Assembly: GCA_902790935.1 (NCBI GenBank)
Contig: CADATP010000012.1
Coordinates: 1 to 61,063 of the forward strand
DNA length: 61,063 nt
Source: an uncultured Lachnospiraceae bacterium
Lineage (GTDB): Bacteria > Bacillota > Clostridia > Lachnospirales > Lachnospiraceae
Direction of reading: 5' to 3'
Made by a program: the position numbers and the translations under genes. Shown in pieces: positions 25,561 to 42,204 of this stretch; position 1 is the stretch's first letter; each line of letters begins with the position of its first letter. The notes below the pieces were generated by a model that worked only from the letters and a program-made list of their open reading frames with translations, made no database searches and was not told where the DNA came from.

Positions 25561-27564
25561 ATGCAAAACAAAGGAACTTATTATTTAACAACAGCAATTG
25601 CCTATACATCGGGCAAACCCCACATCGGAAATTCATATGAGATCGTTATGGCCGATGCCATTGTGAGACATAAAAGACTGCAGGGCTATGATTGCCGCTT
25701 CCAGACCGGAACAGACGAGCACGGTCAAAAGATCGAAGAGAAGGCTGCGGCAGCAGGCGTTACTCCCAAGGAGTTTGTTGATAATATAGCCGGCATCATT
25801 CGGGGAATCTGCGACAGCCTGAACGTTTCTTACGACAAGTTTATCCGTACCACCGATGCGGACCATGAGAAACAGGTTCAGAAGATGTTCAAGAAAATGT
25901 ACGCAAAGGGAGATATCTACAAGGGAGCCTACGAAGGTCTCTACTGTACACCCTGCGAGTCTTTCTGGACCGAGAGCCAGCTCGTAGACGGTAAATGCCC
26001 CGACTGCGGACGTGAAGTTAAGCCCGCAAAAGAAGAGGCGTATTTCTTTAAGATGAGCAAGTACGCCGACAGACTTATGAAGTATTACGACGAGCATCCC
26101 GAGTTTATCCAGCCTGTTTCCAGAAAGAACGAGATGGTAAACAACTTCTTAAAGCCCGGACTTCAGGACCTTTGTGTATCGAGAACCTCTTTCAAGTGGG
26201 GTATTCCTGTTGATTTTGATGACAAACATGTCGTTTATGTATGGCTTGATGCTCTTTCAAACTATATCACGGGTCTCGGATACGACGCAGACGGCGAGAG
26301 CGGAGAGCTTTACAAGAAATACTGGCCCGCAGATCTTCATCTTATCGGAAAGGATATTCTCCGCTTCCATACCATCTACTGGCCTATCTTCCTTATGTCT
26401 CTTGGGGAGCCCCTTCCCAAGAAGATATTCGGACATCCCTGGCTTTTACAGGGTGGAGAAAAGATGAGTAAGTCTCGCGGAAACGTTATCTACGCTGACG
26501 ATCTTATTGATCTGTTCGGAGTAGACGGCGTTCGTTACTATGTACTTCACGAGATGCCTTACGAAAATGACGGAACTATCACATGGGAACTTATGACCGA
26601 GAGATACAACTCGGATCTTGCCAATGTTCTTGGAAACCTTGTTAAGAGAACGATTTCCATGACCAATAAATATTTTGACGGAGTTGTCAGAAAAACCGGA
26701 GCTACGGCAGATGTTGATGCCGACCTTAAGGCTGTTGTTACCGCTGCAAGAGATAAGGTTGCGAAAAAGATGGATGACCTCAGAGTTGCTGATGCTATCG
26801 ATGAAGTATTTGCGATCTTTAAGCGCTCCAATAAATATATCGATGAGACCGAGCCCTGGAGCCTTGCAAAGGATGATGCCAATAAGGACAGACTTTCCGA
26901 GGTTATGTACAATCTTACCGAGTCTATTGTGATCGGTGCAAATCTTCTCTATCCTTATATGCCCGAGACCGCTGACGCTATCCTTGCTCAGCTTTGCGAG
27001 ACCGGAAAGAGAGATTACGAGGACCTTGATAAGTTCGGACTTTTCGAATCCGGCAAGAAGGTTACAGCAGAGCCCGAGATCCTCTTCGCAAGACTTGTTC
27101 CCGAAGAGATCATGAAAAAGGTTGAAGAGATCCGAGCAGCACAGAAGGCTGAGTACGAGAAAGAAAACGGAATTACTGCCGAAGATGCAAATGCTTCGGA
27201 AGAATCTGACGCAGATGTCATCGATATCGATCCTAAGGATACCATCACATACGACGACTTCTCAAAGCTTCAGCTTCAGGTTGGAGAGATCGTTAAGTGC
27301 GAGGCTGTTCCCAAGTCCAAAAAGCTTCTTTGCTCTCAGGTAAAGATCGGCAGCAAGACTCGCCAGATCCTTTCCGGTATAAAGGCAAGCTACTCTCCCG
27401 AGGAGATGGTAGGCAAGAAGGTTATGGTACTCGTAAACCTTCAGCCCAGAGAAATCGCAGGACTTACCAGCGAGGGAATGATCCTTTGCGCCGAAGACGC
27501 CGAAGGAAAGCTTGCGATCATGGTTCCCGACAGACCTATGCCTGCCGGAGCTGAGATTTGCTAA
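25561..27564 (+). CDS. metG: Methionyl-tRNA synthetase
   Basis: A class I synthetase of 667 residues that charges tRNA-Met with methionine. The HIGH motif is PHIGNSYE (about 18-25), the zinc knuckle has CTPCESFW and CPDCGRE, and the KMSKS loop is GEKMSKSRGN near residue 300. The anticodon-binding helical domain follows, then an acidic linker (ASEESDADVIDID) and a C-terminal OB-fold tRNA-binding domain with LQVGEIV and ILSGIKASYSPEEMVG, which is used for dimerisation. The start at 25561 has GGAGGAAAG upstream; the earlier frame start is rejected. The stop codon is the first base of a structured spacer. Confidence 0.97.
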   Translation: MQNKGTYYLTTAIAYTSGKPHIGNSYEIVMADAIVRHKRLQGYDCRFQTGTDEHGQKIEEKAAAAGVTPKEFVDNIAGIIRGICDSLNVSYDKFIRTTDADHEKQVQKMFKKMYAKGDIYKGAYEGLYCTPCESFWTESQLVDGKCPDCGREVKPAKEEAYFFKMSKYADRLMKYYDEHPEFIQPVSRKNEMVNNFLKPGLQDLCVSRTSFKWGIPVDFDDKHVVYVWLDALSNYITGLGYDADGESGELYKKYWPADLHLIGKDILRFHTIYWPIFLMSLGEPLPKKIFGHPWLLQGGEKMSKSRGNVIYADDLIDLFGVDGVRYYVLHEMPYENDGTITWELMTERYNSDLANVLGNLVKRTISMTNKYFDGVVRKTGATADVDADLKAVVTAARDKVAKKMDDLRVADAIDEVFAIFKRSNKYIDETEPWSLAKDDANKDRLSEVMYNLTESIVIGANLLYPYMPETADAILAQLCETGKRDYEDLDKFGLFESGKKVTAEPEILFARLVPEEIMKKVEEIRAAQKAEYEKENGITAEDANASEESDADVIDIDPKDTITYDDFSKLQLQVGEIVKCEAVPKSKKLLCSQVKIGSKTRQILSGIKASYSPEEMVGKKVMVLVNLQPREIAGLTSEGMILCAEDAEGKLAIMVPDRPMPAGAEIC

Positions 27565-27733
27565 TAACAGCGGATTGAATAATACATTCTGAATACACTT
27601 GTGTAATGAAGAATGTATTATTCGAAGGCGCCCCACCACATGAGCAAAAAAGTGATTTTTCAAAGAAAAATCGCGATTTGCGAAGGTGGTGAGGATTGCG
27701 AGAATTACGAAGTAATGGAGCAATCCGTTATTA
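27562..27733 (+). other. Structured palindromic element between metG and the alpha/beta hydrolase gene
   Basis: Almost every base of this spacer can pair. Arms TAATAAC-AGC-GGATTG (27562-27577) and CAATCC-GTTATTA (27721-27733) form an outer stem starting at the metG stop. Inside are a perfect 14-bp stem (27577-27590 with 27610-27623) topped by TACAC-TT-GTGTA, and an irregular arm CACCAC/GTGGTG (27634-27639, 27686-27691) enclosing GCAAA/TTTGC and a 10-bp hairpin (27652-27674). A last hairpin, GGATTGC (27693-27699) with GCAATCC (27720-27726), competes with the outer stem for CAATCC. The AGGAGG site follows. A cis-regulatory RNA or a MITE-like repeat would fit. Confidence 0.6.
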
Positions 27734-37058: not shown

Positions 37059-37129
37059 TTGACATCTTGGGAGCATAGTGATATTTTAGTATACACAAGA
37101 TGTTAGCACTCTTTGATATCGAGTGCTAA
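37059..37129 (+). promoter_or_regulatory. Heat-shock promoter with CIRCE operator
   Basis: TTGACA (37059-37064), 17-base spacer, TATTTT (37082-37087), then CIRCE: TTAGCACTC (37103-37111), N9, GAGTGCTAA (37121-37129). HrcA binds CIRCE and represses hrcA-grpE-dnaK-dnaJ until heat stress titrates GroEL. The operator lies just after the start point. Confidence 0.95.
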
Positions 37130-37183
37130 CAACAAGACCAAAGCTTAAGGAAGCTTTCCTACAACAGTAAAGGAGCGGACGCG

Positions 37184-38879: not shown

Positions 38880-40823
<1,944 letters not shown>

Positions 40824-41018
40824 GCGATCAGCATAGCGTACTTTGCTATGCTGACAAAAGGGTCTCGATGTATTTACGAGCCCTTTTGCGCGGAGCGAAG
40901 CGGAGTGTCGCGCAAGATGTCACGTACTTTGTGACATCTTGAAAAGCGATCAGCATAAAGTTAAAATATCAACTCGTAAGGGGACAAATCTTTTGTCCCC
41001 TATACGCGTATAAAAAGG
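40824..41018 (+). other. Multi-hairpin spacer between dnaK and dnaJ
   Basis: Five hairpins fill the gap. A: TCAGCATAGC (40828-40837) with its complement (40845-40854), loop GTACTTT. B: AAAAGGG-T-CTCG (40856-40867) with CGAGCCCTTTT (40877-40887), terminator-like. C: TTGCGCG/CGCGCAA (40886-40892, 40909-40915). D: 11-bp CAAGATGTCAC (40913-40923) with GTGACATCTTG (40931-40941), same GTACTTT loop as A. E: GGGGACAAA/TTTGTCCCC (40980-41000). A 12-bp palindrome TATACGCGTATA follows at 41001-41012. GCGATCAGCATA occurs twice (40824-40835, 40946-40957), so the right arm of A can alternatively pair with the second copy. Confidence 0.65.
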
Positions 41019-41028
41019 TGGATTTATT

Positions 41029-42204
41029 ATGGCAGACCAGAAAAGGGACTATTACGAGGTCCTCGGCGTAGACAAAAACGCAGACGAAGCTGCACTTAAA
41101 AAAGCATATCGTGAGCTCGCCAAAAAGTATCATCCCGATGCAAACCCCGGAGATAAGGAAGCTGAGGCAAAGTTTAAAGAAGCTTCAGAGGCTTATGCCG
41201 TTCTCTCAGATCCCGAGAAGAGACGTCAGTATGACCAGTTCGGACATGCTGCATTCGATGGCGGCGCAGGCGGAGCCGGAGGATTCGATTTCTCAAATAT
41301 GGACTTCTCCGATATCTTCGGAAGCTTCGGAGATATTTTCAGCGGAATCTTTGGCGGTGGCGGAAGAAGCTACGGCGGAAATTCCAACGGCCCTATGAAG
41401 GGTGCGAATATCCGTACAAGAGTTGATCTGGATTTCCTCGAGGCGGTATTCGGATGTGAAAAGGAAATAGAGCTTACCGTTAAGGAGACATGTACCTCCT
41501 GTAACGGATCCGGAGCCAAGAAGGGAACATCTCCCGAGACCTGCCCTACCTGCGGAGGTAAAGGACAGGTTGTTCGTACCCGCCAGTCTATGCTGGGTAT
41601 GATGAGAAGCGTTGAGACCTGCCCGGACTGCGGAGGAACAGGTAAGATCATCCGCGAGAAGTGCCCTGATTGCAGAGGCAACGGCTTCGTACCTATGAAA
41701 AAGAAATACTCCGTTAACATCCCTGCCGGAATTGACAACGGCCAGGCAGTCAATATGCCCGGACTCGGCGACCCCGGAAGAAACGGCGGCCCCAGAGGAG
41801 ATGCCCGCGTTGAAGTACGCGTACGTCCTCACCCCGTATTCCAGAGAGACGGATTCGATATATTCTCAAATGTACCTATTACGATCGCACAGGCTGCTCT
41901 CGGCGGAGATGTACTTATCGATACCGTTGACGGCAAAGTAGTGTATAATGTTAAAGCAGGAACACAGACCGGTACCCGCGTCAGATTAAAAGGCAAGGGT
42001 GTTCCTTCCTGGAGAAGCAAGGGCGTAAGAGGCGACCATTACATCAACCTCATCATCAAGACCCCGGATAAGCTCTCCAAGGAAGCAAGAGAAGCCCTTA
42101 TGGAATTTGACAGACTTACCGGCGACAGCTTAAACGAAGTTGCAAGACAGACCGGAAAAGACCCGGATGACGGCGGCAAGAAGAAAAAGCGTTTCGGCAA
42201 ATAA
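41029..42204 (+). CDS. dnaJ: Chaperone DnaJ (Hsp40)
   Basis: A 391-residue type I DnaJ: J-domain with the HPD triad in [10 protein letters not shown], a Gly/Phe-rich linker ([20 protein letters not shown]), four CxxCxGxG zinc repeats ([32 protein letters not shown]) and two beta-sandwich substrate domains. It delivers unfolded proteins to DnaK and stimulates its ATPase. Ribosome site AAAAAGGTGG. It follows the long structured spacer, so its level relative to dnaK may be set by hairpin B or the palindrome. Confidence 0.98.

Follow-up and report, generated by a model that had tools for sequence, protein, structure and literature searches.

A clade-specific, REP-like repeat as the probable source of the hairpins between dnaK and dnaJ in an uncultured Lachnospiraceae bacterium

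The spacer between dnaK and dnaJ on contig CADATP010000012.1 of an uncultured Lachnospiraceae bacterium (assembly GCA_902790935.1) is 205 nt long and folds into a series of hairpins. We analysed this spacer within the whole stretch of 61,063 nt, referred to as the window, and in related genomes (G000 is the genome of the window; other genomes are labeled G0nn and loci Lnnn). With a probability of about 0.68 we regard the spacer as holding one unit, followed by a truncated second one, of a composite, non-autonomous and clade-specific repeat that resembles repetitive extragenic palindromic (REP) sequences. Most likely, the hairpins are not a switch made for the chaperone genes. Members of the repeat family are confined to one clade in our sample, share a covarying fold, prefer a defined position and orientation at stop codons, are retained at sites judged to be orthologous, and include near-identical copies.

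Structure of the dnaK-dnaJ spacer

The spacer plus short flanks has a folding energy of -93.4 kcal/mol (z -8.4), a stability reached by 0 of 200 shuffles, and the hairpins listed in a preliminary description of this DNA are thus real. Likewise, hairpins A and D combine unlike, perfect stems with an identical GTACTTT loop, as had been stated there. The following features were distinguished:

40819..40944, forward strand: whole unit, matching covariance model R1 with 92.5 bits (this copy belonged to the training set)
40824..40911, forward strand: helix P1 enclosing hairpins A, B and C; GCGA (40824-40827) pairs with TCGC (40908-40911)
40828..40854, forward strand: hairpin A, 10-bp perfect stem, loop GTACTTT (40838-40844)
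40855..40888, forward strand: hairpin B, stem with loop ATGTATTTA; not a terminator
40889..40907, forward strand: hairpin C region with CGNAG motifs CGGAG, CGAAG and CGGAG; weakest helix
40913..40941, forward strand: hairpin D, 11-bp perfect stem, loop GTACTTT (40924-40930)
40946..40957, forward strand: truncated second unit GCGATCAGCATA, formerly the 'duplicated arm'; arrays elsewhere also end in a partial unit
40979..41001, forward strand: hairpin E, separate from the repeat; kept without A-D in the closest relative, G013
41001..41012, forward strand: palindrome TATACGCGTATA, flanking hairpin E on its 3' side and separated from the downstream AGGTGG by 3 nt

The sequence GCGATCAGCATA is indeed present twice, at 40824 and 40946, and a 12-mer direct repeat of this kind was seen in 6 of 5000 resamples under a first-order Markov model. 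The proposal that the 3' arm of hairpin A pairs instead with the downstream copy did not hold: this pairing costs 7.2 kcal/mol, its middle pair has an ensemble probability of about 3e-5, and the complementarity it needs is not kept in the spacers of G029 and G012. P1 is missing from the minimum free energy (MFE) structure of the G000 dnaK-dnaJ copy. No Rfam family was found in the G000 spacer at gathering score.

Hairpin B had been likened to an intrinsic terminator. The T run of this hairpin is part of the stem, and a terminator scan of positions 40750-41060 returned none, hence it is not terminator-like. AGGTGG (41016-41021) is unpaired in both the MFE and the centroid structure at 37 °C, the temperature of all folds, and thus does not behave like a site masked by an RNA thermometer. 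The palindrome was confirmed at its position and occurs once in the window, but it is the flank of hairpin E and is altered in G029. An attenuator or RNA thermometer specific to dnaK-dnaJ, made of hairpins A to E and the alternative pairing of A, had been offered as one function of the spacer. Although the very stable fold, the retention of hairpin E in G013 and the hairpins in other long spacers of the genus would suit such a device, we consider it very improbable. It was rejected on the loss of A-D in G013, the absence of terminators in the scan and the disfavoured, non-conserved alternative pairing; moreover, the unit also follows many other genes.

A promoter-like sequence TTGAAA-17-TAAAAT (10 of 12 positions, a consensus match only) at 40939-40967 covers both the end of hairpin D and the partial unit. 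The G013 spacer is without its first hexamer.

A family of four-hairpin units

The same four-hairpin unit is present at many other genes of the same clade, which agrees with the option of an inserted repeat family raised in the preliminary description. Units are about 112-126 nt long and follow one plan, with P1 (about GCRAT with ATYGC) around hairpins A, B and C, followed by hairpin D. The loops read about GTMCTTT in A, about ATGNNNYAA in B, CGNAG in C, and GTACTTT or similar in D; the loops are conserved, with invariant residues, and the stems vary. Variants of P1 stay paired (GCGA/TCGC, GCAA/TTGC, GCCGA/TCGGC, GTCGA/TCGAC), and its 5' strand is paired as proposed in the MFE structures of 58 of 69 units. 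Among 21 aligned units, standard pairs fill 91.3% of the pair cells and double changes occur at 34 of 38 pairs (shuffled mean 24.4). The covariation score is 0.704, compared with 0.226 for shuffled and at most 0.118 for slid controls. Pairing is poorest in P1 (78.1%) and at one pair of hairpin C (65.0%). All 21 aligned units have CGNAG within their middle 40 nt, a figure that carries no chance control. The covariation check on the spacer stems was therefore positive, albeit for a dispersed family rather than for the dnaK-dnaJ operon.

Several arrays end in partial units, which begin with a similar GCRATC sequence. In nine unit-bearing loci no Rfam match at gathering score overlapped a unit; the sole overlap was with mir-BHRF1-3, on the other strand of L127, at 24.1 bits compared with a gathering score of 80. 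Five copies in G012 (L100, L101, L110, L112, L113) are embedded in a longer repeat that has a further, outer stem of ~25 bp, the sequence of which differs between copies and stays largely complementary. This longer form is flanked by about CTATGGGTCYTCG and GCCTCRGACACATTG.

Distribution and spread

Matches to R1 were found in at least 7 of 31 genomes of the genus, with at least 73 matches in total: at least 33 in G012, 16 in G008, 8 in G029, 6 in G014, 4 each in G000 and G013, and 2 in G005. These counts are lower bounds since scoring was limited to 120 initial candidates per genome. The seven genomes, all from gut Lachnospiraceae, form one clade in a midpoint-rooted tree of Upp and DnaJ from all 31 (FastTree support 0.992). 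Among 200 genomes drawn from the family, one matched, G000 itself; here up to 18 candidates of each were considered under stricter filters, which makes this even more of a lower bound. When the surroundings of dnaJ (about 3 kb) were compared in 80 named relatives, R1 matched only in UBA3632, which we take as G012.

Three G012 copies (L101, L112, L113) are 98-99% identical, and three copies on a single G008 contig (C33, L279) are 95-97% identical. Such near-identity at different loci makes recent spread visible. At L279, one copy each follows an ammonium transporter-like open reading frame (ORF; 591 aa, identified by its C-terminus) and an asparagine synthase ORF, both flush with the stop, and the third is the next unit in tandem.

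Carriage by phages was considered and not supported, as one degenerate pattern for a common form of hairpin A gave 0 hits in viral_contigs; this null is weak because the stems vary. No published description of the element was found among the titles and abstract openings covered.

Position at gene ends

Removal of later array units, places fetched twice, and weak or partial matches reduced 83 R1 matches to 62 arrays, of which L254 entered by its second unit. Stop offsets refer to the longest ORF of at least 70 codons; at least at L249 this ORF is in the wrong frame, the true stop being adjacent as well. In 34 of the 62 arrays R1 starts -5 to +3 nt from the stop of an upstream gene in sense orientation (TAA 19, TAG 12, TGA 3). 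The mirror control, on the other side and strand, gave 1 of 62, and 555 of 20000 random positions fell near a sense stop. Six further arrays have a sense stop 25-51 nt upstream and 22 have none within 60 nt. When sites were collapsed by orthology, judged by hand from the flanking proteins, about 25 of 46 lay at a stop.

The genes marked by the element include dnaK, upp, tpiA, cheR, an ammonium transporter-P-II fusion, priA and asparagine synthase (Pfam). Directly after upp it was found in G013, G000, G029, G008 and G005 and was not seen in the other 22 stretches, yet all 27 genomes have an intact Upp C-terminus (IFGTK). The DnaK C-terminus (...DFREV) is likewise intact in G000, G013, G029 and G012, with or without the element. 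Thus, in the cases that could be checked, genes end naturally next to the element and are not truncated by it.

Seven arrays abut the 5' ends of tRNA-Arg genes in antisense orientation, five with anticodon acg and two with tct (L258, L259, L117, L263, L255; L287, L270), the same tRNA being used in several species. The first unit of L254 lies antisense against the 5' end of a tRNA-His gene.

Evolution of the stems

Nine sites judged orthologous provided 24 non-independent pairwise comparisons in an alignment fitted to the structure. Of 864 pair cells, 546 were unchanged, 239 were changed on both sides and still paired, 27 were changed on one side, and 52 were unpaired in one member. One pair of hairpin A after upp is C-G in G013, T.G in G029 and T-A in G000, a stepwise path in place.

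Wobble pairs are rare. Anchoring A and D on their loops in 69 of 80 distinct units yielded 1380 cells with 1131 Watson-Crick pairs, 29 G.T/T.G, 31 A.C/C.A and 189 other combinations. Isolated stem mismatches, counted in 71 units, comprised 9 G.T versus 2 A.C, or 17 versus 5 at looser settings; the test is weak because terminator-like hairpins gave 25 G.T versus 17 A.C. In MFE structures 195 of 2791 pairs were G-U on the element strand and 46 of 2628 on the other strand. Loop-closing pairs account for 106 of the 195 and 3 of the 46. A pure loop effect was nevertheless rejected, as an excess of 89 versus 43 non-closing G-U pairs remains, an about two-fold lean. For comparison, the G-U share was 11.4% versus 5.3% in 16 tRNAs, 2.1% versus 2.0% in the Clostridiales-1 RNA described below, and 14.7% in shuffled units.

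These data bear on the idea that the unit is a folded single-stranded DNA substrate of a recombinase or transposase, similar to attC sites or REP hairpins, in which structure serves mobility only and transcription is irrelevant. The low wobble count and the preponderance of double over one-sided changes (239 versus 27) are what it would predict. It would also account for stop codons and tRNA 5' ends, which are alike only as gene borders, and for the CGNAG motifs in 21 of 21 units, given that such motifs are unusually stable in DNA hairpins. By contrast, the strong sense bias at protein genes is left unexplained, G-U pairs lean to the element strand, an enzyme was not found, and the mismatch test is weak, as said. 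Moreover, template switching during DNA synthesis, a published route to perfectly paired stems, could alone remove wobble (PMC8794818). We therefore consider a DNA substrate improbable, and the residual G-U lean shifts a little weight from it to an RNA module owned by the host.

In the latter explanation the fold is a cis-acting module at many operons, where after the stop codon it sets mRNA segment stability or translation termination. Sense orientation, stop adjacency, invariant loop residues and stems maintained at the nine orthologous-judged sites are in line with this, as are the surplus of G.T over A.C (17 to 5) and the non-closing G-U pairs. At tpiA (L253) the element is followed by a terminator-like hairpin that carries a T run, and would thus be part of the transcript. 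On the other hand, matches were restricted to a part of the species (7 of 31, a lower bound), G013 has lost the element at dnaK-dnaJ, none was seen behind upp in either G014 or G012, and the genes served are of different kinds (Pfam). Since, in addition, seven arrays are antisense to tRNA-Arg genes and near-identical copies at different loci show spread, we regard a host module as rather unlikely.

The dnaK-dnaJ locus and its relatives

The G000 assembly comprises 2.28 Mb and is 82.7% complete. Genes in the window are arranged in the order hrcA-grpE-dnaK-dnaJ (Pfam), and an inverted repeat at 37101-37131, upstream of hrcA, is one that we take to be CIRCE-like. The genes bordering the spacer are:

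38934..40823, forward strand: dnaK (HSP70) ORF, PF00012 with E 2.6e-243; stop TGA (40821-40823) forms the element's left border
41029..42204, forward strand: dnaJ ORF, with PF01556, PF00226 and PF00684

Of 30 dnaJ loci compared, 27 had a measurable spacer; a contig end interrupted the other 3. Spacers measure 4-6 nt in 15 of 24 cases from the same genus, and 84-115 nt with a hairpin in G007, G016, G019, G024 and G021. G029 and G012 carry an array of hairpins A, B, C and D in the corresponding position, with loops that are similar (one reads GTCCTTT) and stems that differ, whereas A-D are missing in the closest relative. In G013, whose DnaJ is 98% identical, the 84-nt spacer retains hairpin E and the palindrome and, of the element, only the first arm AGCAATCAGCATA, as if an array had collapsed. 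The idea, derived from this spacer, that TCAGCATA repeats are a target-site duplication was dropped because several other loci show arrays ending in partial units.

The notion that dnaK and dnaJ are usually separated by a short plain gap was not borne out. In the 75 measurable of 80 named relatives the median is 85 nt (range 2-690), so a long gap is not unusual. In L032, from a different genus (G032), a 348-nt spacer holds three tandem copies of another repeat (GAATTGCGAGAGCACGAAGTGCGGAGC...); the dnaK-dnaJ spacer has therefore taken up repeats more than once.

A model for the repeat and its consequences

In keeping with a REP-like repeat, the element is present throughout the clade, seems still to duplicate in some genomes, and often begins directly at the stop of a gene that lies upstream in sense orientation; it was probably moved by an enzyme. 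Its stems might stay paired through fast divergence partly by template-switch mutation of DNA. At the locus studied here the element is presumably transcribed with dnaK, where in the manner of REPs it could hinder 3'-5' decay or terminating ribosomes, such that dnaK is favoured over dnaJ. An mRNA barrier after dnaK that lowers dnaJ relative to dnaK would be the likeliest local consequence.

Several points weigh against a mobile repeat. A mobilising enzyme was not found, and Y1_Tnp genes do not track the family; nor was a target-site duplication or a clean empty/filled polymorphism seen among the genomes compared. As many as 28 of the 62 arrays are not at a sense stop, including the seven antisense to tRNA-Arg genes, the 34 upstream ORFs may include spurious ones, and sites that are orthologous were counted repeatedly. 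All data are sequences, mostly from incomplete metagenome-assembled genomes (MAGs). Finally, the G-U lean (17 to 5 in G.T over A.C, 89 versus 43 in non-closing pairs) hints at selection on the RNA strand, which a purely selfish DNA repeat would not need.

The odd dnaK-dnaJ spacer is explained by the repeat as one copy of a family. The family also offers a natural test set, in which the same fold recurs at the same gene ends of related species and stems are rewritten in pairs with few wobble intermediates. It allows one to ask if covariation derives from RNA selection or from template switching of DNA, and if operon stoichiometry is tuned by repeats located at stop codons. L279 on contig C33 of G008 is a good place for studying recent insertion.

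Comparison with known systems

The unit shares with REPs and bacterial interspersed mosaic elements its nature as a multi-copy, mostly extragenic palindromic repeat and its proximity to the upstream stop (34 of 62 arrays; mirror 1 of 62). Where two genes run in the same direction, an intervening REP is located near the 3' end of the first ORF, whose stop is often supplied by the REP itself in the GTAG class (PMC3733652); REPs less than 16 nt from a stop are reported to lower translation (PMC12306157, citing Liang 2015). Differences are the length of about 112-126 nt with four hairpins, compared with about 14-40 nt for a REP, and the combination of conserved loops with hypervariable stems. Wobble pairs are rare in the unit, whereas GT pairing is often observed in GTAG REPs (PMC3733652). 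The tags GTAG and CGTC by which a REP is recognized are absent from both strands of the 205-nt spacer; among 21 units GTAG occurs in 6 and CGTC in 14, counted anywhere on either strand, terminal or not. An IS200 or REP-associated tyrosine transposase as mobiliser found no support. In 12 genomes, mostly incomplete MAGs, Y1_Tnp genes did not co-occur with the family, being absent from G008 and G014 and present in element-free G011 and G027. Loci were compared for four of the 10 matching Y1_Tnp genes (three of the four in carriers), and no unit was present in them.

Integron attC sites also follow stop codons and keep their structure while stem sequences vary. The units resemble them in both respects, but they sit at housekeeping genes and have four hairpins. 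The Salmonella dnaK-dnaJ spacer is likewise long (85 nt), and dnaJ mRNA is lower than dnaK mRNA in one condition, with regulation tied to PhoP and low Mg2+; the passages on this spacer describe no such element (PMC12077118).

Nearest in kind to the unit among known elements is the Clostridiales-1 RNA (Rfam RF01699; Weinberg et al. 2010, PMC2864571), of which the window holds a copy:

27562..27733, forward strand: Clostridiales-1 RNA; its first base is the first base of the metG (methionyl-tRNA synthetase) stop (27562-27564)

Clostridiales-1 was detected in 28 of 31 genomes of the genus at E <= 0.001 (25 over the cut-off), with up to 27 matches per genome. Like the unit, it is multi-copy in this genus, has an outer stem around several hairpins and few G-U pairs (about 2% on either strand), and is stop-adjacent: 19 of 27 copies start within -6 to +5 of a sense stop (mirror 1 of 27). 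The 27 copies are the one in the window and 26 of 30 fetched loci, the four weakest (L317-L320) being left out. Clostridiales-1 differs in sequence and architecture and is genus-wide, whereas the unit is limited to a single clade. RF01699 matched no unit in the nine loci at E up to 1 and nothing in the spacer at gathering score; the only match in those loci was a separate copy at 1157-1301 of L109. Given its copy number in the genus and its stop adjacency, the designation of Clostridiales-1 as an RNA gene deserves a second look. It is tempting to speculate, though we do so tentatively, that Lachnospiraceae carry a whole class of folded elements at gene ends, comprising the unit, its longer variant with an outer stem and Clostridiales-1, in which loops are fixed and stems are rewritten partly by template switching. 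If so, Clostridiales-1 would belong to the mobile repeats and not to the RNA genes, and the covariation that commonly serves as proof that an RNA is functional would in part report a DNA process.
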